A DNA stretch of 64,000 bases. It comes from Salinicola peritrichatus (GTDB lineage Bacteria > Pseudomonadota > Gammaproteobacteria > Pseudomonadales > Halomonadaceae). Position 1 is the first letter of the stretch. Every line of letters starts with the position of its first letter. The translations under genes were made by a program, and so were the position numbers. Below, piece after piece: positions 9,674 to 31,661 of the stretch. The DNA lies in assembly GCF_003206715.1 (NCBI RefSeq), contig NZ_PZJU01000004.1:1039-65038 (forward strand), given 5' to 3'. The notes under the pieces are model-generated. The model searched no databases, was not told where the DNA came from, and saw only the letters and a program-made list of their open reading frames with translations.

Positions 9674-9717
9674 CGACGCTCTGCCGGAAAAATGCCTGCG
9701 CTCGCCCATACTGCGTT

Positions 9718-9777
9718 AAAAATCGGCTTAAAATGCTCATTTACAACCTCGTAAACTCCGCTTTTGCGCCGATTTTT
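9718..9777. repeat. Dispersed palindromic repeat, copy 2
   Basis: The arms AAAAATCGGC (9718-9727) and GCCGATTTTT (9768-9777) are exact complements. The core CTCATTTAC...CGTAAACTCCG is shared with the copy at 2448-2507. It lies between the amiB stop and the mutL start. The right arm ends in a T run, so it could also act as a terminator for amiB transcripts. Confidence 0.75.
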
Positions 9778-9842
9778 GCCTTGTCTGGCCGTCGCTCGCC
9801 GATTTTTCAGTCAGAGCGCGGTGACGGTGGGGAGATGTTGCC

Positions 9843-11795
9843 ATGACTGAGCCGTCACGCATACGCATTCTCGATCCCCGGCTAGCCAACCAGATTGCCG
9901 CCGGGGAAGTGGTCGAGCGGCCGGCTTCGGTGGTCAAGGAGATCGTCGAGAACGCCATCGACGCCGGTGGCCGGCGGATCGAGATCGAGCTGGAGGCCGG
10001 CGGGTCGAGACTGATTCGGGTGCGCGACGACGGCAGCGGCATCGACGAGAGCGATCTGCCGCTGGCGCTGTCGCGTCATGCCACCAGCAAGATCGCTTCG
10101 CTGGAGGATCTCGAGGACGTCGCCAGCCTGGGCTTTCGCGGTGAAGCGCTGGCCTCGATCAGCGCGGTATCGCGCCTGGAGTTGATCTCCAATGCCGCCG
10201 ACGATCCGAGCGGTGGTTGGCGAGTCGTCGCCGAAGGGCGCCAGATGGAGCCCCGAGTGACCCCGGCGCCGCATCCGCGCGGTACCTCGGTGCTGGTGCG
10301 CGATCTATTCTTCAATACTCCGGCGCGACGCAAGTTCCTGCGTACCGAGAAGACCGAGTTCGGCCATGTCGAGGAGGCGTTCCGGCGCCTGGCGTTGTCA
10401 CGCTTCGATATCGCCTGGCTGTTGCGTCACAACCAGAAAGTGGCGCATCAGTTGCCCGCAGTGGCCGGCGATCAGGCCGGCCGCGAACGGCGTATCGGTG
10501 CGCTGCTCGGCAAGCGGTTCATCGACGAGGCGCTGCATGTCGACATGCAGGCGTCGGGGTTGCGCCTGTGGGGCTGGGTTGGCCTGCCGACCCATTCGCG
10601 TGCCCAGGCCGATCAGCAGTATTTCTTCGTCAATGGCCGTACGGTACGCGATCGTCTGGTGGCGCATGCGATTCGCCAGGCCTATCGCGACGTGCTGTTC
10701 CATGGCCGTCATCCGGTGTTCGTGCTCTATCTGGAACTCGATCCCCGGGTCGTCGACGTCAACGTGCATCCGACCAAGCACGAAGTGCGCTTCCGCGATG
10801 GCCGCCTGGTGCACGATTTTCTGTTCTCGAGCCTGCATCGTGCGCTGGCGGAGGTGCGGCCCAACGGCGCCGGCGTCGCGGAGGCCGCCGAGGAGGAAGA
10901 CCAGCGCGCGCCCGCCGTGGCCCAGGCAACACCCGACTGGCAGCAGCAACGCATGCCGCTGGCCGGACAGCGCGATGTCGATAACGGCGGGGCTAGTGAC
11001 GGCTGGCGCACGGACCGCGAGCGGCCTCCGGCCCAGCGTGTCCGCGAGTTCATGGCGGGCTACCACGCGCTGCATCCGGATCACGAGTCGACCTTGCTCA
11101 CACCGCGAGAAGGCGGCGCCGGTGCGCCCGGTGGAGAAGCCGCCGAGGTCGCGCTGCGGGAGCGGCCCGCCAGGCCGGTGGCGACGCTGGCCGAGGGCGA
11201 CGATACCCAGGCGCCGCCATTGGGCTATGCGATCGCCCAGCTGCATGGCGTCTACATTCTTTCGCAGACCGAGCGCGGCATGGTCATCGTCGACATGCAC
11301 GCTGCCCACGAACGTATCGTCTATGAGCGCATGAAGCAGCAGATTCATGCCGGCGCGCTGGATGCCCAGCCGCTGCTGGTCCCGGTCTCGATCGCGGTCA
11401 GCGCGGGCGAGATCGAGACCGCCGAGCGTGAACGGGAGGCGTTCGGCCGGCTGGGCGTCGAACTCGATGCCGCCGGCCCGGAAACACTGTTGGTGCGTCA
11501 GATACCGGCGCTGCTCGCCGATGCCGATATCGAACCATTGATCCGCGACATGCTCGGCGACCTCGAACGCTTCGGACGTTCCGACCGCCTCGAGACCCGC
11601 ATCAACGAACTGCTCAGTACCATGGCCTGCCATGGCAGCGTGCGCGCCAATCGGCTGTTGAGCGTGCCGGAGATGAATGCGCTGCTGCGCGACATGGAGC
11701 GCACCGAGCGCAGCGGCCAGTGCAACCACGGCCGCCCCACCTGGACCGAGATGTCGATGGCGCAGTTGGACAAACTGTTCCTTCGGGGGCAATGA
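9843..11795 (+). CDS. mutL: DNA mismatch repair protein MutL
   Basis: A 650-residue mismatch repair matchmaker that couples MutS recognition to strand incision. The N-terminal GHKL ATPase carries [17 protein letters not shown] and [16 protein letters not shown] and [14 protein letters not shown] follow. A long acidic/proline-rich linker (about 340-450) leads to the C-terminal dimerisation domain. That domain holds [12 protein letters not shown] starting at residue 484, a variant of the DQHA(x)2E(x)4E endonuclease motif, so this MutL is probably an endonuclease as in bacteria without MutH. GGGGAG precedes the ATG. The miaA GTG follows after a single base. Confidence 0.96.
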
Positions 11796-11796
11796 C

Positions 11797-12738
11797 GTGA
11801 CGCAGGATTCCCGTCCAGCGGCGGTGATGCTGCTGGGCCCCACCGCCGCCGGCAAGACCGATACCGCTATCGCCCTGCATGAACGATTCGACTGTGAACT
11901 GATCAGCGTCGACTCGGCGATGGTCTATCGCGGCATGGATATCGGCACCGCCAAGCCTTCGGCCGGCGAACTCGCGCGGGCGCCGCACCGGCTGATCAAT
12001 ATTCGCGACCCGGCCGACAGCTACTCCGCCGCCGACTTCCGTGACGACGCGCTGGCGGCGATGCACGAGATCACCGGCTGCGGCAAAATGCCGCTGCTGG
12101 TCGGCGGAACCATGATGTACGCCAAGCGCCTGATGGAAGGCGTGGCCAGCATGCCGCCGGCCGATCCGGAACTGCGCGAGACGCTCCGCCGGCGCGGCGA
12201 GGCCGCGGGTTTCGAGGCGTTGCATGCGGAATTGGCCAGGGTCGACCCGGCGGCGGCGGAGGCGATTCATCCGCGCAACCGGCAGCGTTTGATTCGCGCG
12301 CTGGAAGTCTACCGCTTGAGCGGTATTCCGCTGAGTGAGCACTGGCGACGCCAGCAACGGGAAAACTTTCCGTGGCGACTGTTGTCCATAGCGCTCGCAC
12401 CCCATGATCGCGCCGTTTTGCACCGACGCATCGCCGAGCGCTTCGAGGCCATGCTGGATGGTGGATTCCTGGCAGAAGTGGCTACATTGAAACAACGCGG
12501 CGACCTTCATGCGGATCTCCCCTCGATGAGGAGCGTCGGCTATCGGCAGGCCTGGGAGTATCTCGAAGGGGCGTACGGTCTCGAGACCCTGCGCGAGCGG
12601 GGAATCGCGGCGACCCGTCAGCTGGCCAAGCGTCAGTTGACCTGGCTAAGGCGCTGGCCCGATCTTCACTGGATCGACAGCAGCGCGCCGGACGTCTGGG
12701 AGCGGGTCGCGAAAATCGTGCGTGACCACGGGAGTTAG
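11797..12738 (+). CDS. miaA: tRNA dimethylallyltransferase MiaA
   Basis: A 313-residue enzyme that adds the dimethylallyl group to A37 of UNN-decoding tRNAs. It shows the P-loop [24 protein letters not shown], the [15 protein letters not shown] segment and the [12 protein letters not shown] region. The GTG start at 11797 lies one base after the mutL stop, with a G-rich ribosome site inside mutL. Length is typical. Confidence 0.95.
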
Positions 12739-17061: not shown

Positions 17062-19628
<2,567 letters not shown>

Positions 19629-19690: not shown

Positions 19691-20866
19691 TCAATGGCGG
19701 GGCGGCGAGATCGCCAGCAACCGGGACGGAGAGAGGCCGTGATCGCCTTGTTTCATCCATGCATGGATCAACGCCTCGGCTTCCCGGCCGTGGTCGCCGA
19801 GCAGTCCGTGGCGCCGCGCGGCGACAAGATTGGGCAGGGCGACCTGCGGATGGAACCCCTTCAACTCGTCGAACGACCAGCGTCGAGGCCTTGCGGCATA
19901 CTTGGCGACCCAGCGAAAGCCGGCGGCGAGACGTTGGCGCTCGGCCGGCATTTCGGGCCACTTCAGGCCGAGCGCCTCGGCCTCGTCGAGCAGTACCGAC
20001 CACGCCGCCAGGTTGAAATTGACGTAGTGCCAGGGGCGGGTGCGCTCGAGCTCCAATGGCTGCGCGCCGTCGGCATCGAACTGAACCGCCAGCCGGGCGT
20101 CGGCTTCGTGCAGCTGCCGTCTGGCCAGCTCGGGACGCCCGACGAAGCGCGCGAACGCCGTCACCTGGGCGTCGTACCAGGTGCCGTGATTGTTGCGCTT
20201 CGACGCCTCGTCCCGGCCGTTGTCGCTTGCGAGCAGCCAGTCGAGATAGTCCGCATACCACTGTTTGAGCGCTTTCAGGGTCGCGTCGTCCAGCGCCGGC
20301 TCCAGGCGTCGGATGGCGTCGGCGAGTTCGATCAACAGGCGACTCTCGATGATGCCGATGCCACGACCGTCGACACGGCCGGGAATCGCCTGGGCGTAGC
20401 GCAGATTCGGGTGCATTCGCGTTTCGGGATCGATGAACCAGTGGCGTAGCTGGGCGATGGCCCGTTCGGCGTAGCGTGGATCGCCGTCGATCCGGTAGGC
20501 CCAGGCCAATCGCTTGACGGTGCCGACGAAGTCGATCAGCCGCTGCTTGTCGGTCGCCTCGCTCAGCGTGGCCTGGTTGTACTCCCCATCGCGTCGTTCG
20601 AAAGGTAGGCCGTCGGGGCGTTCCGGGTCCGGCCACCAATAGGGCGCGAAACTGAAATAGTCGTGAGGATCGCCGCTGGCGGGCATGCGGGTCTTGTCGA
20701 CCACGCTGTACAGCGGCGTTTCCAGCTCCGATGATGCCTCGGTGACGATCCGCTGGGCGGCGTCGTCGACGACCGACTGCGGAATGTCGGGATCGGCCCC
20801 GGCCGGCGTTATCTGCACCGATAACGCCAGCGCCAGCGCCGAGACCCGTACCGGCCATCGTCTCAT
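19691..20866 (-). CDS. Alginate_lyase-fold (PF05426) secreted enzyme, PL38-like
   Basis: A 391-residue protein with a signal peptide (about residues 1-24). Motifs are HDYFSFAPYWWPDPERPDGLPF (split over residues 68-89), HPNLRYAQAIPG and RNNHGTWYDAQ (NNH at 225-227), followed by TRPWHYVNFNL. These recall PF05426 proteins now placed in family PL38, in which glucuronan and alginate lyases are known. Predicted role: periplasmic or secreted trimming of the polymer made by this operon. The start overlaps the Sel1 gene stop (ATGA), so it is the last gene of the operon. The exact substrate is unknown. Confidence 0.75.
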   Translation of the reverse strand: MRRWPVRVSALALALSVQITPAGADPDIPQSVVDDAAQRIVTEASSELETPLYSVVDKTRMPASGDPHDYFSFAPYWWPDPERPDGLPFERRDGEYNQATLSEATDKQRLIDFVGTVKRLAWAYRIDGDPRYAERAIAQLRHWFIDPETRMHPNLRYAQAIPGRVDGRGIGIIESRLLIELADAIRRLEPALDDATLKALKQWYADYLDWLLASDNGRDEASKRNNHGTWYDAQVTAFARFVGRPELARRQLHEADARLAVQFDADGAQPLELERTRPWHYVNFNLAAWSVLLDEAEALGLKWPEMPAERQRLAAGFRWVAKYAARPRRWSFDELKGFHPQVALPNLVAARRHGLLGDHGREAEALIHAWMKQGDHGLSPSRLLAISPPRH

Positions 20867-23622
20867 TTCGAAGAATCACTACCGGCTGCCGCTGCGACCT
20901 GAGGATCTTCGAGCAGATCCCGCAGGGTCTCGATCGCCGTTTCACTGTCGCTGTCCATGACGCCGTCGAGCCAGATCATGGCCTGCTCCTGATTGACGAA
21001 CTCGACGCCTCGCGCCTGCAAATAGGCCTGAGCCAGCGAGAGCCGTGCGGATTGGTGTCCCTGGCGGGCGGCCTTCACCAGCAGTTCGGCACCTTTGCGG
21101 GGATCTCGCGGCAGCACTTCTCCATTCAGATAGGCGCGGCCGAGAGCGGCCTCGGCGCCGGCATGGCCGGTATCGGCGGCGGCGGTCAATAGTTGTTTGC
21201 CGCGCTCGACATCCTGGGCAACGCCACCCTGGCCTTCCAGATAAGCCGAACCGAGAGAGGTCTGCGCGGAGACGTTGCCGTTGTCGGCGGCCCTCGATAG
21301 CCATGTCACGGCTTTTTCCGGATCCTGCTCGACGCCGTTGCCTTCGAGATAGGACTGTCCCAGCAGGCGTTGTGCGTTGTCGTCTCCCCGTTCGGCCGCC
21401 TGAGTCAGGTAACGCACTCCGCGTTCGGGATCGGCGGCCACGCCGGTGCCGGTGAGATAGGCTTCGCCCAGCGTCACTCCGGCCGAGCCGTGACCGGCAT
21501 TGGCGGCTTGGGTCAGCAGCCGGATGCCGCGTTGCGGATCGGCCGGGACGCCATCGCCTTTCAGCAGCATTTCACCGAGATCGGCTTCGGCACCGACATG
21601 GCCGGCGGCGATCGCCCGCTCGAAGTAATCGGCGGCGCGCGCCTTGTCGACGTCGACACCGAGGCCTTCGGCGTACATTCGCCCCAGCGAGGCGGTGGCA
21701 CCGGGGTGTCCCTCATCGGCTGCCTGTTGCAGCCAGTGCCGAGCGCTGGCGTAGTTGGCACGCACGCCCTCGCCACGCAGGTAGGCGCGACCGAGATCGG
21801 CCATGGCCGGAACTTCCCCCATCTGCGCGGCGCGGATCAGGTCGTTGACGTCGCCGCGCTCACCGCTGGCGCGATAGGTGCGTGCCAGTGCCTGCTGGGC
21901 CGAGGGATGGCCGGCTTTGGCCGCGCGTCTGAGCCACAGCTCCGACAGCGTCAGATCCGGGGGAACCCCGACCCCGTCACGATAGGCGCGGCCGAGCACG
22001 ACCATGGCATAAGCGTCGCCCTGGTTGGCAGCGTCCTGGAGCAGCTTGACGCCCTGTTGGCTGGAGCCGGGGAGCTTGCCCTCGAGGTAGCCTTGGCCGA
22101 GCCGTGTCTTCGAGGTGGTATCGTTGGGATCCTGTTCGACGGCGCGGCTCAGCCACTGCTGGGCCTTGGCCGGATCGTGCTGCAGCCCGGCTCCGTCCAT
22201 ATAGGCGATACCCAGCGTGCGGGCGGCGCCGCTTTGGCCTTGATTGGCGGCCTCCGTCAACAGTGCCACGCCCTGTACCGGGTCGGCGGGGATGCCGTCA
22301 CCCTTGAGATAGCTCTCGCCCAGACGCGCGGTGGCATAGGGGTGGCCGAGTTCATGTGCGCGCTGGAGATAGTCGATGCCGCGACTCGCCTGGCGCTGGA
22401 CTTGTTTTCCATCGAGATAGAGATTGCCCAGTAGCGCGAGAGCGTAGGCGTCGTCTTGCTGCGCGGCACGTTCGAGCAATTGAACGCCCTGGGCGACGTT
22501 GCGCGTGAGAACGTCACCATCGAGGTAGGCGCTACCGAGCGTGCGGGCGGCATCGATATTGCCCTGCTGCGCGGCCTGAGACAGCCATTTCTCGGCCTGG
22601 GCCGGGTCGGCGGAGACTTGCCCTTGCCCCAGATAAGCCTGACCCAGCCAGTAGGCGGCATCGACGTTGCCCGTTTCGGCGGCGCGCTCCAGCATGGCCA
22701 GTCCCTTGGAGGGGTCCTGTTTCTGCACCAGCAAATGACCGGCCGCCGCCAGGGCTTGCGGGTCGCCGCTGTCGGCGGCGCGGGTCAGCCACTGCTCTTC
22801 CCGGGCCGGCTGTGGAAGCAGACCGTCCTCGGCATAGAGTCGCGATAGCGCGAGCATGGCATTCACGTCGCCGCTCTCGGCCTGGGGGGTCATGGCCTGG
22901 GCGTAACGCTCGGCGTAGGCGCGGGACTTGCCGGGGTCCGTGTCGAAGGCGCCGCCAGCGGCATAGTTTTCGGCCAGCATCTGCAGGGCACGTGGTTCGT
23001 TCTGCTCCGCGGCCTCTTCCAGTTGCTGGCGTGCGGCATCGACGTCGCGCGGCACGCCTTCGCCTGCCAGCTGCATTTCGGCAACTTCGATACGCGCGCT
23101 GGGATTGCCATCGTGATCGATTGCCTGCTGGAACAAGTTCCAGGCAAGTGCCTGATCCTGCTTCACGCCATCCCCGGCACGGTAGAGCCGACCCAGCTTC
23201 AGCGAAGCATTGTCGAGGCCGCTGAATTCATAGGGAACGGCCTGGCGGTAGTAGTGAACGGCCAGGGTGGGGTTGCGAGGCACGCCCATGCCGTCATCGT
23301 AGATCCGCGCCAGCTCGTAGCTGGCTTCGGGATGTTCCTGCGCCATTGGCTTGAGCAGTTCGATGGCTTCCAAGGTCTTGCCCTGGGCTTCCAGCTCGCG
23401 GATATAGTCCACCCGGTTCCAGTCGGTGGAGGGCATCGACTCAATATAGTGGTGAGCGAACAGTTCCTGGTCTTCCGGCGCGATGGGCTGTGCCTGGTAG
23501 GCGCCTTGGCCTGCGCAAGCCGTCAGCACCACGGCTGAAACCAGGACCGAAGCCGGGCCCAGCAAGAAGCGGCCGGGGCGTCGCGAATGGGACGGACGTG
23601 CGGTTCGACTCGGTGTTGTCAT
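20863..23622 (-). CDS. Giant Sel1-repeat lipoprotein, AlgK-like position
   Basis: A 919-residue lipoprotein: the signal sequence ends in a lipobox with Cys36 (VVLTAC), then roughly twenty or more Sel1/TPR-like repeats of about 36 residues run to the C-terminus (recurrent pattern A-x-x-LG-x-x-YL-x-G-x-GV). Pseudomonas AlgK, an outer-membrane Sel1 lipoprotein that scaffolds the alginate secretion complex, is about half this size. The location next to alg8/alg44-type genes suggests the same job: bridging the synthase complex to the outer membrane. The start at 23622 has AGGAGAG upstream. The repeats are divergent, so ancient duplication is more likely than recent expansion. Confidence 0.8.
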   Translation of the reverse strand: MTTPSRTARPSHSRRPGRFLLGPASVLVSAVVLTACAGQGAYQAQPIAPEDQELFAHHYIESMPSTDWNRVDYIRELEAQGKTLEAIELLKPMAQEHPEASYELARIYDDGMGVPRNPTLAVHYYRQAVPYEFSGLDNASLKLGRLYRAGDGVKQDQALAWNLFQQAIDHDGNPSARIEVAEMQLAGEGVPRDVDAARQQLEEAAEQNEPRALQMLAENYAAGGAFDTDPGKSRAYAERYAQAMTPQAESGDVNAMLALSRLYAEDGLLPQPAREEQWLTRAADSGDPQALAAAGHLLVQKQDPSKGLAMLERAAETGNVDAAYWLGQAYLGQGQVSADPAQAEKWLSQAAQQGNIDAARTLGSAYLDGDVLTRNVAQGVQLLERAAQQDDAYALALLGNLYLDGKQVQRQASRGIDYLQRAHELGHPYATARLGESYLKGDGIPADPVQGVALLTEAANQGQSGAARTLGIAYMDGAGLQHDPAKAQQWLSRAVEQDPNDTTSKTRLGQGYLEGKLPGSSQQGVKLLQDAANQGDAYAMVVLGRAYRDGVGVPPDLTLSELWLRRAAKAGHPSAQQALARTYRASGERGDVNDLIRAAQMGEVPAMADLGRAYLRGEGVRANYASARHWLQQAADEGHPGATASLGRMYAEGLGVDVDKARAADYFERAIAAGHVGAEADLGEMLLKGDGVPADPQRGIRLLTQAANAGHGSAGVTLGEAYLTGTGVAADPERGVRYLTQAAERGDDNAQRLLGQSYLEGNGVEQDPEKAVTWLSRAADNGNVSAQTSLGSAYLEGQGGVAQDVERGKQLLTAAADTGHAGAEAALGRAYLNGEVLPRDPRKGAELLVKAARQGHQSARLSLAQAYLQARGVEFVNQEQAMIWLDGVMDSDSETAIETLRDLLEDPQVAAAAGSDSSK

Positions 23623-23687
23623 ATAAATCTCTCCTGATCGGTAGGACCCGCCCATCCTTGGCGCGGGCCGATAATGGCTGATCATCG

Positions 23688-24926
23688 TCAGTCGGGTTCG
23701 AACGTCGTGGCGATCTGTTGGTCGTCTGGCTCGGGTATGACGTGGGACTGATCCTTCGGGTCCATGAAGTAGAAGGTCACGTAGCCACCGGCGCTGCGGT
23801 TGTCGATGGGGCGCTTCTGGCTGACGTAGTGGGAGACCCGAGGGTCGTCGCGGTGCTTGAGGTAGATCTCCATCCAGGCCAGGTACTGTTCATCGTCGAG
23901 GAAGCCGCGATATTGCGCATGGGTCGCCAGGTTACCGAGGGCTGCCGGATCGTCGAAGGTATCCAGCGCGAACTGCACGGCATCGTCGATGGTGTGACCG
24001 TGATACTCGAAATTGAACAGGTCGTAGCCCTGGCGATAGGCCACCTGCATGATGTTGACGAGATAGAGCAGGGCGTAGTTCTGGTAGTGGCTGGCACGCC
24101 GACCGCGCGCCATCTCGTGCGGCAGGGCTCCCTGCGGTGTCATGTCGCTCAGTGCTGAGTAGATCGCGCTGATGCCGAACTGGAACAGCTCGTCGTCGTC
24201 GGTGAGTACGCCGATCATGCTGGCGTAGAGCGCCCGACGATAGAAATGGTTGTTGCAACAGCTCGGATCCCCGCCGCGAATGGCGGAGTGCTTATGGGCC
24301 AAGCGATTGAGCCAGTCATTGATTCGTGCGATCTCTTCCTCGCGCCCCTCGATCGCGGGTCTGACGATGGAGTAGGCCATCGCCGCCGCGAACATCATCG
24401 ATTCGGTCGAATACCAGCCCTGGGGCTCGAGGCGGTTGTAGTAGAACTCGCTCAACGCATCGTGGCGGGCCCATTTGTCGAGGAAGCGCACCAGACAATC
24501 GGCGTAGTAGGTGTCGCTGGTGGCGACGTACGAGCCGGCCAGGTTCGATACCGTGTCCTCGAAATCGAAGAGAGGCTCGGAGGCCAGTTCCCACGCCTTG
24601 GGCTGGGGATAGTAGCCGGGGATACGAATCACGCTGTCCAGCGGCGGTTTCGCCAACTCCTGCTGGCAACTGGGGCCGTGCTTGAGCTGATCACTTGCGT
24701 ACTGCAGCAGATCGTTGTCGGTACGCGCGAGCAGTGCCATCCGTGCCTTGACGTCGAAATAAGAGGCGTCGGGATCGGTCACGGTGTACTGGGACAGGTC
24801 CAGGCGCTGACGCTCCTCGTAGCTCATCGTCGCCTGCGCCGACAGTGACAGCCCCAGCGTGGCGAAGCCGATGAAAAGGATCATGCCCCGGTGCAGGCTG
24901 GACCTAATCAGTGAAGTCCGGTTCAT
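23688..24926 (-). CDS. AlgL-like polysaccharide lyase (PL5-related)
   Basis: A 412-residue protein with an N-terminal signal peptide (cleavage near residue 31). The (alpha/alpha) toroid signature of PF05426 is visible: CCNNHFYRRALY (NNH 224-226) and SHYQNYALLYL (279-289). These align by eye with INNHSYW and LAYHNYSL of P. aeruginosa AlgL. In alginate systems AlgL clears stray polymer from the periplasm; here the polymer may be polyglucuronate. The start at 24926 has GGGAG upstream. It lies 14 bp after the PL14-like gene. Confidence 0.8.
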   Translation of the reverse strand: MNRTSLIRSSLHRGMILFIGFATLGLSLSAQATMSYEERQRLDLSQYTVTDPDASYFDVKARMALLARTDNDLLQYASDQLKHGPSCQQELAKPPLDSVIRIPGYYPQPKAWELASEPLFDFEDTVSNLAGSYVATSDTYYADCLVRFLDKWARHDALSEFYYNRLEPQGWYSTESMMFAAAMAYSIVRPAIEGREEEIARINDWLNRLAHKHSAIRGGDPSCCNNHFYRRALYASMIGVLTDDDELFQFGISAIYSALSDMTPQGALPHEMARGRRASHYQNYALLYLVNIMQVAYRQGYDLFNFEYHGHTIDDAVQFALDTFDDPAALGNLATHAQYRGFLDDEQYLAWMEIYLKHRDDPRVSHYVSQKRPIDNRSAGGYVTFYFMDPKDQSHVIPEPDDQQIATTFEPD

Positions 24927-24940
24927 AAGCGGCGACTCCC

Positions 24941-25858
24941 TCACGTTTTGGGAACCATCAGCGTGAAGTCGGCAAAATCGACGGTCTGGTCGCGGGGCGT
25001 GCGCCAATCGCTGCCGTGGCCGCCGAAGAAGGTCGAGAACATCAGGCCGTCGATGTGCACGCGGTCGGTAGTGCGGTAGACGATGCCGTGCTGCTCGAGC
25101 GTAGGCTGCCCGTCGATCCAGATCCGTGCGATGCCGTTTTCTTCATCCGGGTCGTTGAGCACGATCTCCTGTTCGACCGTGACCCACTGGCCCGGGGTGA
25201 AACGCCAGCGGCCGCGGCCCACCGATTCGCCGTAGTCGGACTCCTTGTTGGCGACATATTCGTAGAGTTCGCCTTGCCCTTGCTTGCGCCACATCAGGCG
25301 CATCGAGAAGCCGTTCTCTCCGGTGACTTCGTCACCGCCAGTCGGGCCGTCGCCGCCATAAAGCCCCGGCAACTTGCCGCCCTTGACGAAATCGAAACCG
25401 GACTGGAAGCGCACCTGGTAGCGCAGGCAGGCGCGATCTGCCTGGCGCAGTGCCGGTACCGGCATGACGAAACCGGCTCCGCCCTCCTCGGCATCGCTCG
25501 GCGACGAGGTGCCTTGCGGATAGGTGACCCGCAACGCCGGGGCGCCAAGATCGCTGTCGGCGGCACTCAACTGCTGCAGGTTCTGCTCGCCCCAGCGGCG
25601 CTGGCCGCCGAGGGTATCCTTGACCCAGTCCTCGGGATCGTCATTGGCCTTCATGGCCAGCGTCTGGACCGGGGCGTAGCGGGTAGAGCAGGCGGCGACC
25701 TGCGGCCGAGTCAGATCGCCATCGCTGGCGGCGTGGGCGGGCAACGACGCTAGCGCCAGGGCGGGGCCAAGCAGCAGCGCGGCTCCCGTGTTGCGGGACC
25801 GGCGAAAATGGCGCTTGGCACGTCGCGGACGAATGATAGGAAGTTGCGGTCGAATCAT
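24941..25858 (-). CDS. Secreted PL14-like polysaccharide lyase
   Basis: A 305-residue protein with an unusually long, Arg-rich signal sequence (cleavage near residue 43, AHA). The body looks like the beta-jelly-roll polysaccharide lyase 14 domain: CLRYQVRFQSGFDFVKGGKLPG at about 143-164, GENGFSMRLMWR, and the GRWRFTPGQWVTVEQ and DGLMFSTFFGG strands. PL14 members attack alginate or glucuronan. It lies between the alg44-type and algL-type genes, a place with no counterpart in the Pseudomonas alginate operon. AAGGAGA precedes the ATG. Export may be by Sec; the Arg run is not a clean twin-arginine motif. Confidence 0.75.
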   Translation of the reverse strand: MIRPQLPIIRPRRAKRHFRRSRNTGAALLLGPALALASLPAHAASDGDLTRPQVAACSTRYAPVQTLAMKANDDPEDWVKDTLGGQRRWGEQNLQQLSAADSDLGAPALRVTYPQGTSSPSDAEEGGAGFVMPVPALRQADRACLRYQVRFQSGFDFVKGGKLPGLYGGDGPTGGDEVTGENGFSMRLMWRKQGQGELYEYVANKESDYGESVGRGRWRFTPGQWVTVEQEIVLNDPDEENGIARIWIDGQPTLEQHGIVYRTTDRVHIDGLMFSTFFGGHGSDWRTPRDQTVDFADFTLMVPKT

Positions 25859-25923
25859 GATCTTCTCCTTGGCGAAATCGCGTCTCGCAATGACTTTTCG
25901 CGAGGGACGAGTCCATTCACGCT

Positions 25924-27387
25924 TCAGTTCATTGCACTTCTCATTTCACCCCGCAGGCCATCGGCGGCACGTCCCCACAGTGACTGCACGCCCTGGTAGA
26001 CGGCACGGCCAGCCTGGTAGGCCCACTCGGCGGCGGTGTCGAGCATCGGGGCTTCGGTGAAGCGCACGTCCACCGGTGTGCCGACGGCGCTGGCGGGCAG
26101 TGGCTCTTCCGGTACCAGCAGGACGCTGGCGACGTTCTGCTGCTGGCGGACCCAGTCGGGGAAACCGGCACGCGGCTGACGCTCCACATCCAGCGCCACG
26201 CTGCGCACGCGGGCGGGGATCGGTTCGGAAGCGTTGGGCAGTGCGATGTAAGCCTTCTGGTGGCTTTCGATGTCGCCGATATCGTCCATGTGCACCAGCG
26301 CTTCGACCATGACGTCGTTGTCGTGGGTGCTGACCAGGGTCATCACGCGATCGCCTTCATTGACGTAGGTGCCGCCGGCGGCGCTCAGGGCCCAGGCCAC
26401 CTCGCAGTCGCAGGGGCTATAGATGGTGTTGGCGGAGAGCCGTGACTTGTAGGCGTCTATGCGCGAACTCTCGTAGTCGCGGGCGGTTTCGAACTGCTCG
26501 ACCCGCGTGCGCGCGATTTCCGGCGTGAGCGTCTCGTAACCCAGCTCGCCCTCGGCGGGATTGGACGAGGTCGCCACGCTGACCTTGCCGTTGTCCGGAT
26601 CCTCGAGGCTTTCCTGCAGATTTTCGATCAGCCGCTTGTTGTAATCGAACGAGGCCTGGGCCAGCAGCAGATCGTTCTGCAGTTCGGCGTTATTGACCTG
26701 GATCAGCGGCTGGTCGCGTTTGACTTTGTCGCCGGCCTTGAGATGGAGATCCTCCAACTGTCCGGCGCCCGGTGCCAGAATGTCGGTGCGCGGGGCCGTC
26801 ACGGCGGCAAAGCTCGGCTCGATCAAGAACACATTGCGATAGACGGTGGCGGCAACTACCGCGGTCAGCACGCCGGCGGCGACCAGCAGCGCGAGGTAAC
26901 GGAACAATGGCACCCGGCGCTTGGTCCTGGTCGACGGCACGGCCGCGTTGGCGCGGCGCTTGCGCGGTGTCTGCGGATCCTGATGCTCGACCAGGCCGTC
27001 GAGGCTGACATGACGGCCGCTCATCTGGGCGCGAATGACGCGTTTCAGAATTTCGCGCTGACGCGGCTCCATGTGAGTGAATTCGAAAGCCATGCGCTGA
27101 CGGGGGCCTTCGCCGATGTCCCGCAGCGGTCTCGCCGTGGCTGGCAGACTCAGCTCGATGCCGCTGGCCATCACTATCAGGGCGACGGGAATATCGCGAT
27201 GGGGCTCGAAGTGCAGCGTGGTGAAAGCCGAGAATCCGCTCATCGACAGGTCATGACCCTTGACGACACGATCGTCGCCCAGCCGGACGTTGAATGGCAT
27301 CTCGACGCGAACGTGACGCCGTTCGTCGCGGCGCTCATGACGCAACTGGTCCGGGTCGCGCTGCGAATCCTGGAAATGATCTGACAT
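25924..27387 (-). CDS. alg44: Alg44-like c-di-GMP-binding polymerase subunit (PilZ + HlyD)
   Basis: A 487-residue inner-membrane protein. The cytoplasmic PilZ domain (about 18-120) keeps both c-di-GMP signatures, RRHVR (R23xxxR27) and D46xSxxG51. One membrane segment spans about 161-183, and a periplasmic HlyD/membrane-fusion-like region follows (about 190-487, including a helical hairpin and the lipoyl-like APGAGQLEDLHLKAGDKV at 206-223). This matches Alg44, which binds c-di-GMP and activates Alg8. It lies 26 bp downstream of the synthase gene, within one operon. Confidence 0.88.
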   Translation of the reverse strand: MSDHFQDSQRDPDQLRHERRDERRHVRVEMPFNVRLGDDRVVKGHDLSMSGFSAFTTLHFEPHRDIPVALIVMASGIELSLPATARPLRDIGEGPRQRMAFEFTHMEPRQREILKRVIRAQMSGRHVSLDGLVEHQDPQTPRKRRANAAVPSTRTKRRVPLFRYLALLVAAGVLTAVVAATVYRNVFLIEPSFAAVTAPRTDILAPGAGQLEDLHLKAGDKVKRDQPLIQVNNAELQNDLLLAQASFDYNKRLIENLQESLEDPDNGKVSVATSSNPAEGELGYETLTPEIARTRVEQFETARDYESSRIDAYKSRLSANTIYSPCDCEVAWALSAAGGTYVNEGDRVMTLVSTHDNDVMVEALVHMDDIGDIESHQKAYIALPNASEPIPARVRSVALDVERQPRAGFPDWVRQQQNVASVLLVPEEPLPASAVGTPVDVRFTEAPMLDTAAEWAYQAGRAVYQGVQSLWGRAADGLRGEMRSAMN

Positions 27388-27413
27388 GGTGAAATCTCCT
27401 TGGTGTCCCTGGC

Positions 27414-29375
27414 TTATTGGCCAGTCATGGCCAGTGCGTTCTCGTCCTTGTGACTGTCGGCAAGCGACAGCGAGAGATCGATCAGTCGAATATCGTGGCC
27501 CGCGATTCGCAGGTGGCAGGGGGTCTTCGCATCGCAGTCGAGATGTCCGGCCTCGGCGAGCGTCCTGTCGCCGACTCCGAACCGCGGGGCGAGTTGCGGA
27601 TCGACGTGCAGGACCGTCGGTGTCCGCGGATCGCCATAGCCGTGCATGCTGGCGCCCCGAAGGCGGTCCAGCGTGGCGACGCGCCGATCGAAACTGTTGT
27701 CGAGCCGAAACTCTCCTGGCGGCAGGTGCACGCTGCTCCCTTCGGGAACGTCGGCCAGCGTCAGCGCCAGCCAGTAGCTGTCGCCGCGGTTTTCCGGGGT
27801 GACGTCATCGGGTTGCTCGCCGGTCATGGCGGCGACCGACAGACGATCCGCCGGCGCCATCACGCCGCCGACCACCGCCAGCACGAAGACCAGTGCACTG
27901 AAGTAGAGCGTGTGGATCAGGTGGCCGCCGAGGCGTTGACGGCGTGCGGCACGCGGGTCGTCCGGCTCGCCGGCGGAGATACCCTGGCGGGACCAGGTCT
28001 GGCGGTTGAAGCGGAAGCTGACCCAGGTCTTGAGAATCGCGCCGCTCAACTGGTTGTAATAGAGCAGCGGCACCCACAGCAGACTCCAGCGCCCGCGCTG
28101 CCAGGCCAGTACCAGGCTGGTGATGCTCCGGGTCATGAGAATCCAGAGCAGATAGGCGAAGATGAACGAGGGGCGTATGAACAGCGTCAGCAGCACCGCG
28201 ACGGTGGGCCCGATCAAGGTGGTCCACATCGATAGCCGTTGATCGACCAGGCTCCACCAGGCGAACCAGCCCACGCGCTTCGGGCCCAGCGCGATGGCGC
28301 GGCCGTTGGTGCGCAGCATGTTGCCGAACCAGCGGCGCATCAGGTCCAGCGACGAGCGGAAGAACCGGTGGCGGTTCGGCAACTCCTCGAACCCGGTGAC
28401 ATAGACGTCGGGAATGTAGAGCATCTTCCAGCGGTGCTTGAGCAGCCAGAACCAGGTCGACTTGTCGTCGCCCGAGAGAAACTTGAAGTTGCCGAAGCGC
28501 CAATGCTCGACGTGGTCGTTCTCGACCAGTTCGATGAACTCCGGATTGGTGGCGAGGTCGGCACGGAAGGCGCTGTAGCGCCCGGTCAACACCAGCAGGC
28601 ACTCGGAGACCGAGGTCGAGCTCATGACCAGATGCCGCTGTGCGTAGCGCAGGTCATACCACTCCTTGGTCACGTCGTTGCCGATGACCACGGCGTTGTT
28701 GTTGGTGGTGATGGCGCCGAGATCCCCGCGGGAGAGGAAGAACGACAGCGAACGCTCCAACGTGCCCGGTTCGATGCGGATATCACCGTCCATGCTGACC
28801 AGCAGCGAACGCTCGGTTGGCATGCAGCGGGAGATGGCGCGCAGGACCTCGGCCATCGCCGAACGCTTGCCGTCGCCTTTCTGGAACATGTAGCGAATGC
28901 TGACGTTGCGTGGCCAGCCGTGTTCTTCCATCACCTGGTCGATGATGTCGACATCGCTGCGATCGGCGATGGCGGCGAAGATCGTGGTTGGCACGCCGTA
29001 GTCGGCGGCATCGCGAACCAGCGCGTCGTAGACGGCGAAGGTGACTTCGGTATCGATGCGAAACGACGTGCAGAGCACATACAGCGCGTCCGGTTCCTGC
29101 TCGGCGCTGGCGGCATCGGCTTCGGCCCGCAGCCGGGGGAAGATTCGGCGGTTGTACCAGACCGAACGGATTGCCTGGACGAACCACCATGAGTAGCGCC
29201 AGGCGCCAACCAGACCCACCGCGAGGATGAAGCTCTTCGATCCGGGGTGGAAGACTTCACTTGGCAGATGCGCGACCAACAGCACGATCGTTGATGCCAA
29301 CAGCAGCAGTACGGTCAGCTCCGTCGCGATCGACGCCTTGCTGGGTCTGGCGCGGGTGTAGTTGAAATGGTTCAT
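27414..29375 (-). CDS. alg8: Alg8-like GT2 polymer synthase with C-terminal extension
   Basis: A 653-residue processive family 2 glycosyltransferase in the inner membrane. It has two N-terminal membrane segments, a GT2 domain (about 95-340) with DGD at 196-198, SGDDKS at 301-306 and RRWFGN at 347-352, then several C-terminal membrane segments ending at about 506. By eye it aligns with P. aeruginosa Alg8 over this whole length (TSFRID, LTGR, LLYYNQ). Residues 507-653 have no counterpart in Alg8 and read like the start of a beta-helix domain (VHLPPGEFRL; GDPRTPTVLHV). The start at 29375 follows AAGGA. The donor may be UDP-glucuronate, judging from the neighbouring ugd. Confidence 0.85.
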   Translation of the reverse strand: MNHFNYTRARPSKASIATELTVLLLLASTIVLLVAHLPSEVFHPGSKSFILAVGLVGAWRYSWWFVQAIRSVWYNRRIFPRLRAEADAASAEQEPDALYVLCTSFRIDTEVTFAVYDALVRDAADYGVPTTIFAAIADRSDVDIIDQVMEEHGWPRNVSIRYMFQKGDGKRSAMAEVLRAISRCMPTERSLLVSMDGDIRIEPGTLERSLSFFLSRGDLGAITTNNNAVVIGNDVTKEWYDLRYAQRHLVMSSTSVSECLLVLTGRYSAFRADLATNPEFIELVENDHVEHWRFGNFKFLSGDDKSTWFWLLKHRWKMLYIPDVYVTGFEELPNRHRFFRSSLDLMRRWFGNMLRTNGRAIALGPKRVGWFAWWSLVDQRLSMWTTLIGPTVAVLLTLFIRPSFIFAYLLWILMTRSITSLVLAWQRGRWSLLWVPLLYYNQLSGAILKTWVSFRFNRQTWSRQGISAGEPDDPRAARRQRLGGHLIHTLYFSALVFVLAVVGGVMAPADRLSVAAMTGEQPDDVTPENRGDSYWLALTLADVPEGSSVHLPPGEFRLDNSFDRRVATLDRLRGASMHGYGDPRTPTVLHVDPQLAPRFGVGDRTLAEAGHLDCDAKTPCHLRIAGHDIRLIDLSLSLADSHKDENALAMTGQ

Positions 29376-29415
29376 CGGGATGTCCTTGGAATCGTACCTC
29401 GACGGCATTCCTTGC

Positions 29416-29440
29416 GCGTCGGCGTCGACGTCGCCGACGC
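29416..29440. other. Hairpin in the ugd-alg8 spacer
   Basis: Perfect nine-base arms GCGTCGGCG (29416-29424) and CGCCGACGC (29432-29440) lie in the 160-bp gap between the dehydrogenase and the synthase gene. There is no T tract, so it is not a standard terminator. It may stabilise or partly attenuate the downstream transcript. Confidence 0.5.
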
Positions 29441-29535
29441 GGATCCCTCCGATCGACACGCAGGCGCCAATCGGAACGGGGGCATGGCATTCGGAGCCGA
29501 CGCTGGCCCAGGCCAACGCCGGCGGGGACGTAACG

Positions 29536-30948
29536 TCAGAGCGTGTAGGCCACGCTCGGGCCGTTGCGCCCGGTCTGGGTTGCCATGGGCGACGTGGTGG
29601 CATCCGCCTGCGGTATCCGCAGCGAATCGGCGCGTCCGACGGCAAAGTAGAGCAGGCCGGCGGCACGCACGCTGTCCGGGTTGAACAGGTTGCGTCCGTC
29701 GATGATCGCCGGTGTGGTCAACTGCTCGCGCAGACGGCGAAAATCGACCGTGCGGAACGCTTTCCACTCGGTGCAGATGACCAGCGCGTCGGCGCCCTCC
29801 AGGGTGTCGTCGCGGCGCCGGGTCAGTACGAGATCGTCGCGCTCGCCATAGATGCGGCGACACTCTTTCATCGCTTCCGGATCGTAGGCGCGGACCTTGC
29901 CGCCGGCGGCCCAGATGGACTCCATCAAGGCCCGGGCGGGCGCTTCGCGCATGTCGTCGGTGTTGGGCTTGAAAGCCAGCCCCCAAACCGCAATGGTCTT
30001 GTCGCGAATGTCGCCATCGAGCGCCTGGGAGAGCTTGGTGAACAGACTGGCCTTCTGGCGCCGATTGACTGCCTCCACCGCATTGAGCAATTCGGCTTCG
30101 TAAGCCACGTCCTGGGCGGTACGAGCCAGAGCCTGGACGTCCTTGGGGAAGCAGGAGCCGCCGTAGCCGCAGCCGGGATAGATGAAGCTGTAACCGATGC
30201 GCGGATCGCTGCCGATGCCACGGCGAACGTTCTCGACGTCGGCGCCGAGCCGTTCGGCGAGATTCGAGATCTCGTTCATGAAGCTGATCTTGGTCGCCAG
30301 CATGGCGTTGGCGGCGTACTTGGTCAGCTCGGCGCTACGGATGTCCATGAACATCAGCTTTTCCTGGCGCCGGTTGTAGGGTGCATAGCATTCGCGCATC
30401 AGCGGTTCGACACGGGGTGAGTCGCAGCCGATGATGATCCGCGCGCCCTGGGAAAAGTCCTCGACGGCCGAGCCTTCCTTGAGGAACTCCGGATTCGAGC
30501 AGACGTCGAAATCGATATCGACATCGCGTCGTGCCAGGCGGTGACGGATCGTCTTGGAGACGTGATCGGCCGTGCCCACCGGCACCGTCGACTTGTCGAT
30601 GACCAGCTTGTACTCCTGCATGTGCTCGGCAATGGCATCGGCCACGCTGAGCACGTATTTGAGGTCGGCGCTGCCATCTTCGTCGGGCGGGGTGCCTACG
30701 GCGATGAACTGCAACGCGCCGAAGTTGACGGCTTGCGCCGGATCGGTGGTGAACAGTAGCCGTTCTTCGGCCACGTTCTGCTTGACCAGCGCTTCCAGGC
30801 CCGGTTCGTAGATCGGAATGATGCCATTCTTGAGGCCTTCGATCTTGTGACTGTCCACGTCCATGCACATGACTTCATGACCGGCGTCGGCAAGGCAGGC
30901 GCCGGTGACCAAGCCAACATAGCCAGTACCAAAGATAGTGATCCGCAT
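29536..30948 (-). CDS. ugd: UDP-glucose 6-dehydrogenase
   Basis: A 470-residue NAD-dependent dehydrogenase that oxidises UDP-glucose twice to UDP-glucuronate. It has the Rossmann motif [40 protein letters not shown] and the catalytic Cys266 in [12 protein letters not shown]. These read as Ugd rather than AlgD: GDP-mannose dehydrogenase has a different motif, FGGSCLPKD, and a different N-terminal half. It is the first gene of the minus-strand operon; AAGGAGAG precedes the ATG. This identity is the main reason to doubt that the operon makes alginate. Confidence 0.9.
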
Positions 30949-31661
30949 TACTGCTCTCCTTGCTTATGTAGCGTTACATTTCTGTCTCATCGTGACGCTC
31001 TTTAACACGACAGCGGTGATTCGAGAGGCAATCGACAGCGACGTAAGAAAGACAGGGAAGCGATTCTCACGTCTCTTCTAACGCCATTCGATTCCCAGTG
31101 AGCGGGCGCGCTTCATAAAAGACCCGGAATCAATGGGTTAAAAAATTTACCTTATATAAGTAACTGATTTTATTTATATAATTTTGTGTTCGAATATTTA
31201 CAGCCACTAACGAACGCCGTTTCCGAACTGCTGAAAACGTTAGGGCTAAAGTCGATTGCGGTCCAATACGCGATCTGCCTTGCTGGTTCCGGTACACAAT
31301 TCATGTCGAAGTATTGCGCTGGTTGTTCCCTGAGGCCGACATGGGTTGTCGGTAAATAGAGACGTGATTTTTTGTAAAAACCGCCATTATGAAACAATGT
31401 GTTAAATAAGTTGTTTTCATGTTTCATGGATATCGAAGAGAGGCTTTTTGTTTATTTTTGATGCAGGGATTGAAGATCGGTGAATTGGCCGCAGTTGTCG
31501 TTCGTCTCCGGCTCTCGGACGCTGTTTGCTCAGTCTCTACTAACGGCCCCTCCCGCATGGATGTGCCAGGGGACCGAAGAGAGCTGCCAGGGTTCACAGC
31601 GGGAGCAAAGGGGACTAAAATGGTCCTATATGAATGATGTCGATAACCAGGGACATCGGGC
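30949..31661. promoter_or_regulatory. AT-rich divergent regulatory region (polymer operon / suf operon)
   Basis: These 713 bp without a convincing gene are visibly AT-richer than the surroundings. They contain CTTATATAAG at 31151-31160 (a perfect palindrome flanked by TTAC and TAAC), a nested inverted repeat CTAACG/CGTTAG at 31207-31243 with inner CGTTT/AAACG, and ATGAAACA/TGTTTCAT at 31389-31427. Promoters for ugd (leftward) and for the suf regulator (rightward) must lie here. I could not assign a clear -35/-10 pair. An 85-codon minus ORF at 31170-31427 has no recognisable product. Confidence 0.6.
31612..31626. promoter_or_regulatory. Candidate operator of the Rrf2 SUF regulator
   Basis: The interrupted palindrome GGACTAAAATGGTCC (GGAC, seven bases, GTCC) ends 35 bp before the regulator start. 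Its centre GACTAAAA resembles the left half of the IscR type 1 consensus. It is a plausible autoregulatory site for the iron-sulfur regulator; binding is not demonstrated. Confidence 0.5.

Follow-up and report, generated by a model that had tools for sequence, protein, structure and literature searches.

The bacterial alginate operon (algD-8-44-K-E-G-X-L-I-J-F-A) is headed by a sugar-nucleotide dehydrogenase, and encodes an Alg8-family synthase of glycosyltransferase family 2 (GT2), an Alg44-type PilZ-HlyD protein, a Sel1/TPR (tetratricopeptide repeat) lipoprotein, and a lyase of polysaccharide lyase family 5 (PL5). Hyaluronan synthase and bacterial cellulose synthase are also processive GT2 enzymes; both use UDP-sugar donors, and the cellulose synthase BcsA is under the control of cyclic diguanylate (c-di-GMP). 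Glucuronan, a polymer of beta-1,4-linked glucuronic acid (GlcA), is reportedly produced by Sinorhizobium meliloti M5N1CS, and to our knowledge no synthase gene cluster has been assigned to it. We found none in the open-licence PubMed Central (PMC) literature, nor any description there of an Alg8/Alg44 operon from Halomonadaceae. Here, we analyzed a 64,000-nucleotide stretch of the Salinicola peritrichatus genome (contig NZ_PZJU01000004.1 of assembly GCF_003206715.1; hereafter, the window), which contains a single operon headed by a sugar-nucleotide dehydrogenase gene and with the same kinds of synthase, PilZ-HlyD protein, lipoprotein and PL5 lyase. It differs from the alginate operon in having a dehydrogenase of the UDP-glucose rather than the GDP-mannose type, extra PL14 (and PL38-like) lyases, a 940-aa lipoprotein, and a synthase from a separate clade, and no AlgE, AlgG or AlgX/AlgJ was found in the genome. 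We consider it likely, from sequence comparisons, that this operon makes a glucuronan-like polymer, a polyglucuronate with beta-1,4 linkages, and that its synthase responds to c-di-GMP; the proposed product is what it would share with the glucuronan producers.

By sequence, the operon's dehydrogenase (Ugd) is of the UDP-glucose type. Compared with the PDB, it scored 530 bits against the UDP-glucose dehydrogenase 2y0e and 206 bits against GDP-mannose dehydrogenase, whereas a classical AlgD (from genome G031), used as a control, scored 557 bits against GDP-mannose dehydrogenase and 239 bits against the best named UDP-glucose dehydrogenase. The operon protein carries the SCFPKD catalytic motif, and both of the motifs (10 and 12 residues long) from which a previous reading of the window, made from sequence only, had proposed a UDP-glucose rather than a GDP-mannose enzyme. 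In the dehydrogenase tree, 23 sampled operon proteins grouped with UGD paralogues, and separately from 19 dehydrogenases encoded beside other alg8 genes, which formed the GDP-mannose group, so that the proposal was borne out by both the PDB scores and the phylogeny. For this tree, the operon rows were thinned to 23 from 54, and six loci lacking the motif pattern were compared by BLAST rather than placed in the tree; this tree and those of Alg8 and PL5 were obtained from short searches, with Shimodaira-Hasegawa-like approximate likelihood ratio test (SH-aLRT) support only. At E <= 1e-30, the genome of the window (G000; 4.62 Mb in 109 contigs, completeness 100% by tool) contains five nucleotide-sugar dehydrogenases, three of them of the UGD type (C41, C2, and C45 of the operon), plus C46 and C67, and none of the five groups with AlgD. 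C67 is 34.5% identical to Ugd and 22.6% identical to AlgD. A gene for an AlgA-type phosphomannose isomerase/GDP-mannose pyrophosphorylase (PMI/GMP) is present elsewhere in the genome, but this gene alone cannot yield GDP-mannuronic acid (GDP-ManA), and the canonical GDP-mannuronate route was not found in this genome.

Of the other alginate genes that the sequence-only reading had listed as missing from the window, AlgE, AlgG and AlgX/AlgJ were not detected genome-wide either. The AlgE porin family (PF13372) had no matches in G000; among 11 operon carriers searched, four matched, one strongly (the Salinicola genome G008), one just over the cut-off (G011), and two below it (G001 and G006), and the strong match had no alg gene within the 15 kb fetched around it. 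A classical AlgG query found nothing in 11 operon-carrying genomes, G000 among them, and was positive in all three classical genomes, one of which was the query's own. The AlgX/AlgJ family (PF16822) gave no match in G000, and in eight of 12 operon carriers searched gave short partial matches that pass the cut-off of the family (31-49 bits) in open frames of ~600-640 aa. AlgI and AlgF are absent from the operon, and the genome-wide searches covered neither these two nor AlgK. When algA, algD, algE, algG and algX were sought across the genome, as the sequence-only reading had advised, the AlgA-type gene was the only one found, and there was no complete set. We have not filed the locus as an alginate operon, because this genome was tested for AlgD, AlgE and AlgG, which are defining features of such a system, and none of the three was found. 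No recurrent porin-like gene was recognized beside the operon at the 54 loci described below, while genome-wide only the AlgE family was searched, and the recurrent neighbors, inspected by eye from the starts of their sequences, resemble housekeeping genes that flank the operon.

The Alg8-like synthase is 33-38% identical to 11 AlgD-linked Alg8 proteins, and the DGD, GDDK and RW motifs are kept. In the Alg8 tree (Halomonadaceae rows thinned to 22 from 54), operon synthases formed a clade of their own, borne on a long branch and apart from AlgD-linked Alg8 (support 100). A single alignment position, 226 (TTN-N versus TTN/D-E), follows the same division, being Asn in 54/54 operon rows plus L140, L152, L157 and L158, and Glu in 19/19 AlgD-linked rows; Glu is also found in seven rows for which the fetched stretch contained no dehydrogenase. 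The nearest non-operon rows, those of G698 and of G469/G607, were joined at support 91 in no clear branching order; in G698 and G469, each genome's single detected nucleotide-sugar dehydrogenase is of the UGD type. The AlphaFold model of the synthase (mean predicted local distance difference test score 87.6) has hyaluronan and cellulose synthases as its nearest folds, at 11-16% identity, which indicates the predicted fold and not the donor. Unlike those enzymes, the synthase has its PilZ domain on a separate partner, and no BcsC-like porin was recognized alongside it.

The gene surroundings of several more distant synthases were also recorded. L152 (7469-16600, in G698) has the order galU-like (NTP_transferase)-alg8-alg44-PL5, followed by an RTX (repeats-in-toxin)/beta-helix protein and a 323-aa protein. 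At L157 and L158 (G469 and G607), an Alg8-family synthase stands without a recognized Alg44 partner, and the genes adjoining L157 resemble, from their sequence starts, outer-membrane-factor and resistance-nodulation-division (RND) pump genes. L134 (9616-13958, in G355) is a cluster of Alg8-like, HlyD-like and PL14 genes without a linked dehydrogenase, whose PL14 is 48% identical to that of the window. At L130 (G216), the start of an open reading frame (ORF) at 9678-12068 resembles by eye the AlgD N-terminus, whereas the remainder of the ORF resembles an AlgG-like beta-helix protein that includes CBM96, and a PF05426 lyase lies between the alg44- and alg8-like genes.

Most operon synthases (that of the window and those of 44 of its 53 relatives) have an extra C-terminal domain of ~140-150 residues, in which two Cys are invariant in 33 aligned rows, and whose structure was predicted confidently over most of its length. 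It has no Pfam match, and a search with the predicted structure gave no significant fold match. Nine relatives lack the domain (Litchfieldella, Franzmannia, Onishia and some Halomonas), which is therefore not essential to the system. G843 and G850 each have two synthase copies, one with and one without the domain, and two strains filed as Halomonas litopenaei (L080 and L083) differ in having it.

To evaluate the conservation of the gene set, named genomes were scanned once with an alignment of 11 synthase rows, and 53 loci were found (54 with the window). All but one of the 53 were in Halomonadaceae, the remaining one being in the alphaproteobacterium Caenispirillum salinarum; the former came from Salinicola, Modicisalibacter, Halomonas, Billgrantia, Litchfieldella, Franzmannia and Onishia, which we take to be genera of this family, plus one unclassified member. 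All six core genes were present in 52/54 loci, the other two running into contig ends, and the order ugd-alg8-alg44-PL14-PL5-Sel1 was seen in 48/54 (tandem copies collapsed), the exceptions being three Billgrantia loci with a second PL14-PL5 pair, Caenispirillum, where ugd is relocated, and the two contig-end loci. The ugd gene was within the operon in 53/54 loci (the exception is a 5.5-kb contig), PL14 was found in all 54, and PL5 in 53 (the exception is truncated), with lyase copies multiplied in some genera. The operon of Caenispirillum keeps alg8, alg44, PL14, PL5 and Sel1, but has a different Ugd (43% identical) in another position inside the operon, as expected if the system needs UDP-GlcA. 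These observations identify the operon as a real, conserved system, and not a chance arrangement. In the Billgrantia loci (L067, L071 and L077), the second PL14-PL5 pair lies 3' of the Sel1 gene, both lyases having been duplicated together, and in L063, from a metagenome-assembled genome, several operon genes are in broken frames.

The synthase was found in 69 of 201 genomes of the family, representing 11 of 24 genera, while in wider samples, own genome included, any Alg8-family match was seen in 10 of 369 genomes from the class and in 24 of 398 from the phylum; three phylum-sample genomes (G624, G672 and G729) had a match, and their loci were left out of the comparison. Within Salinicola, the operon is present in 10 of 18 same-genus genomes as a clean present/absent block, and in all eight operon-free genomes purA directly adjoins iscR. 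The PL38-like gene is accessory, being found at 8/54 loci, in two of which it is several kb off and outside the operon, and at 6/10 Salinicola loci. At L058 (102-1136) and L059 (144-1178), it lies several kb upstream of the operon, past the suf genes.

By Pfam, the Alg44-like protein has the PilZ plus HlyD architecture of an Alg44-type co-polymerase, and a loose PilZ motif pattern was found in 54/54 rows, which makes the c-di-GMP control suggested by the sequence-only reading plausible. Among 51 rows of the Sel1 protein, 44 show a lipobox, the seven other ORFs apparently starting too early; the protein scored 146 bits against the AlgK model NF038194 (cut-off 700), and Sel1 repeats are common to many proteins. 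In the PL5 lyase, the NNH, Arg and Tyr motifs seen in A1-III and Smlt1473 are conserved, and with them the N, H, R and Y that are catalytic in Smlt1473, although the residue at the position of Smlt1473 R312 is not cleanly aligned. NNH was present in 16/16 operon rows of the PL5 tree (13/54 loci sampled), in which operon PL5s stood apart from five of six AlgL rows; the sixth, L149, on a very long branch, fell inside the operon group, and this tree is therefore weak evidence. For the PL38-like lyase, the best structures were 3nfv and 8bdq, the latter presumably a PL38 member, and Pfam does not part PL5 from PL38.

The sequence-only reading had named glucuronan-active members for all three lyase families. 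PL14 includes a glucuronate-active viral enzyme. The literature agrees for the other two: Smlt1473 (PL5) is reported to be active on poly-glucuronate over pH 5-9 (PMC11784403), and two PL38 enzymes are described in PMC9029943 as endo-beta-1,4-glucuronan lyases, one of which, CUL-I, was inactive on alginate, while one PL38 enzyme is reported there to degrade alginate. As to polymers from the family, the Halomonas polymer P39a contains only trace GlcA, while in TG39 GlcA is the main uronic acid, at 27.9%, according to PMC6962145, where TG39 is cited; we did not use these values as evidence.

In the window, the ORF listing contains seven ORFs in a single minus-strand train at 19691-30948, with purA (18219-19628, plus strand) on one side and the iscR-sufB block (from 31662, plus strand) on the other. 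The strand, span and gene content given by the sequence-only reading were all confirmed by the ORF listing and by Pfam, which supports every assignment (the two PF05426 matches scored 138.8 and 258.3 bits, with a cut-off of 22.2). Transcription would proceed from ugd through the alg8-like, alg44-like, PL14, PL5, Sel1 and PL38-like genes. The description of the junctions as short gaps or overlaps fits five of them (gaps of 26, 65, 14 and 2 bp, with 4 bp of overlap at the last), but not the 160 bp between ugd and alg8. No convincing AlgU-, sigma-54- or sigma-70-like site was seen on inspection of the 713-bp region upstream of ugd.

Table 1. Features of the operon and its upstream region, in positions of the window.
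Feature	Position	Strand	Evidence
ugd, UDP-glucose 6-dehydrogenase type, 470 aa	29536..30948	-	Pfam UDPG_MGDP_dh; best PDB match 2y0e; tree; 12-residue motif
alg8-like processive GT2 synthase, 653 aa, ATG at 29375-29373	27414..29375	-	Pfam Glyco_tranf_2_3; DGD, TTNN, GDDKS and RRW motifs; AlphaFold model
Extra C-terminal domain of alg8-like synthase, ~140-150 aa	27414..27866	-	Alignment; predicted structure; no Pfam match
alg44-like PilZ-HlyD protein, 487 aa	25924..27387	-	Pfam PilZ and HlyD_3; c-di-GMP motif RxxxR...DxSxxG
PL14 polysaccharide lyase	24941..25858	-	Pfam Polysacc_lyase_14 (PF21294), 225.9 bits (cut-off 27); PDB 5gmt, E 3.2e-32; signal peptide judged by eye
PL5 lyase, 412 aa	23688..24926	-	Pfam Alginate_lyase (PF05426); SCCNNH and MAR...HYQNY motifs; signal peptide judged by eye
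Sel1-repeat lipoprotein, 940 aa, AlgK-like in kind	20863..23685	-	Pfam Sel1 repeats; NCBIfam; lipobox LTAC
Optional PL38-like lyase	19691..20866	-	Pfam Alginate_lyase (PF05426); PDB comparison; signal peptide judged by eye
Intergenic region, 713 bp, presumed promoter	30949..31661	.	46% GC versus 64.5% in operon; Shine-Dalgarno-like AAGGAG before ugd

The working of such a system can be sketched from these parts. Ugd would convert UDP-glucose to UDP-GlcA, which the Alg8-like GT2 enzyme would polymerize while moving the chain across the inner membrane. On the Alg44-like protein, c-di-GMP would be sensed by the PilZ domain, while the HlyD-like part would take up the chain on the periplasmic side. 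The Sel1 lipoprotein may serve there as the scaffold of a periplasmic complex, as AlgK does. PL14 and PL5, with the PL38-like lyase where present, would trim the chain or remove stalled chains, as AlgL does for alginate. Gene content and order, their conservation, the dehydrogenase type, the absent alg genes, the PilZ and lyase motifs, and the synthase clade were observed here; the substrate, the linkage, the regulation and the role of each periplasmic protein are what we infer. The sequence-only reading had proposed a glucuronan-like polymer built on an Alg8/Alg44 core. For such a polymer, fed by UDP-GlcA, support comes from the UGD-type dehydrogenase, from the genome having yielded no AlgD type, and from the synthase clade with its outside relatives, and the biosynthetic part of the proposal is well supported by the genome-wide and family-wide tests. 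Its description as a secretion system is not supported, since no AlgE-type porin was found in G000 and no recurrent outer-membrane gene was recognized beside the operon.

Several observations weigh against a glucuronan-like product. The operon Ugd passes the NCBIfam subfamily TIGR03026 but no equivalog cut-off (e.g., TuaD, 489 bits versus 700), and the two further Ugd paralogues in Salinicola mean that UDP-GlcA is not exclusive to the operon. The shorter dehydrogenase C46 is about equidistant from Ugd (29.6% identity) and AlgD (27.1%), and only the tree, at support 81, excludes it from the AlgD group. Since the tree tool warns of long branches where L152 (G698) joins the operon clade, this join may reflect long-branch attraction. 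Asn226 belongs essentially to one lineage, and is therefore a correlate rather than a set of independent events, and G355, one of the seven additional Glu rows, is a possible exception: the one Ugd-like gene found in this genome, which is 79% complete, is partial. The lyases fit glucuronan but do not discriminate, since PL5, PL14 and PL38 also have alginate-active members. No outer-membrane channel was found (AlgE family genome-wide; neighbors in 54 loci). Lastly, the product could also be a heteropolymer, or be made from a derivative of UDP-GlcA.

Some of these points could be accommodated by a variant or degenerate alginate system, still making polymannuronate with GDP-ManA from elsewhere while Ugd serves another pathway. 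The Alg8/Alg44 kind of the synthase and the PilZ-HlyD protein would agree with this, as would the AlgA-type gene, the intermediate position of C46, the partial AlgX-family matches in eight other operon carriers, and the alginate-cutting members of PL5 and PL14. However, none of the five dehydrogenases of G000 groups with AlgD, AlgE, AlgG and AlgX/AlgJ were not found there, synthase clade and position 226 both split from AlgD-linked Alg8, and Ugd is kept in the operon at every locus but the 5.5-kb contig, and we regard this explanation as very improbable. A polymer of GlcA with another sugar, resembling hyaluronan, or one made from a UDP-GlcA derivative such as UDP-galacturonic acid (UDP-GalA), seems somewhat less remote, but still unlikely: no recurring second transferase, epimerase or amino-sugar enzyme was recognized in the operon, and the hyaluronan synthases, although they are the nearest solved folds, match at only 12-16% identity, which is uninformative on the donor. 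Activity on homo-glucuronan, which speaks against a mixed polymer, also occurs in PL14. It is reported for PL38 enzymes (PMC9029943), whereas Smlt1473 also cuts hyaluronate (PMC11784403 and PMC8511899), as a mixed polymer would allow.

The product might instead be kept in the periplasm, where the lyases would cut it to anionic oligo-uronates acting as periplasmic osmolytes of a halophile. This idea gains from the missing porin, in G000 and beside the operon, from the near-universal presence of PL14 and PL5 and their multiplication in some genera, and from the signal peptides judged by eye in the window's lyases. Nevertheless, we give it a low probability: an unlinked or unrecognized channel is quite possible, given that the genome-wide search covered the AlgE family only; PF13372 matches, one strong and three weak, do occur in four of 11 operon carriers, although they have not been linked to the operon; the size of the Sel1 lipoprotein points to an assembly that spans the envelope; and alginate export systems, too, normally have a lyase next to the synthase. 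A c-di-GMP-responsive synthase for a glucuronan-like polymer remains the reading that we prefer.

On a more speculative level, the Alg8 family as a whole may be split by donor, into a GDP-ManA branch and a UDP-GlcA branch found mainly in Halomonadaceae and in some distant Proteobacteria, with Asn/Glu226 as part of the switch, and the halophile polymer may be made and lyase-cut without an alginate-type porin, possibly as a periplasmic pool of oligo-uronates rather than slime; we offer this broader scheme as a long shot. If a glucuronan-like product is correct, the operon would provide a genetic handle on bacterial glucuronan synthesis, the alginate synthase family would have switched its sugar donor, and an "alginate" label on such operons would mislead. 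Many bacteria of the Halomonas family carry a six-gene, alginate-like machinery tied to another sugar supply, whose product is probably a glucuronic acid polymer; if so, this polymer system, its own lyases included, would be widespread in a halophile family and yet apparently overlooked.

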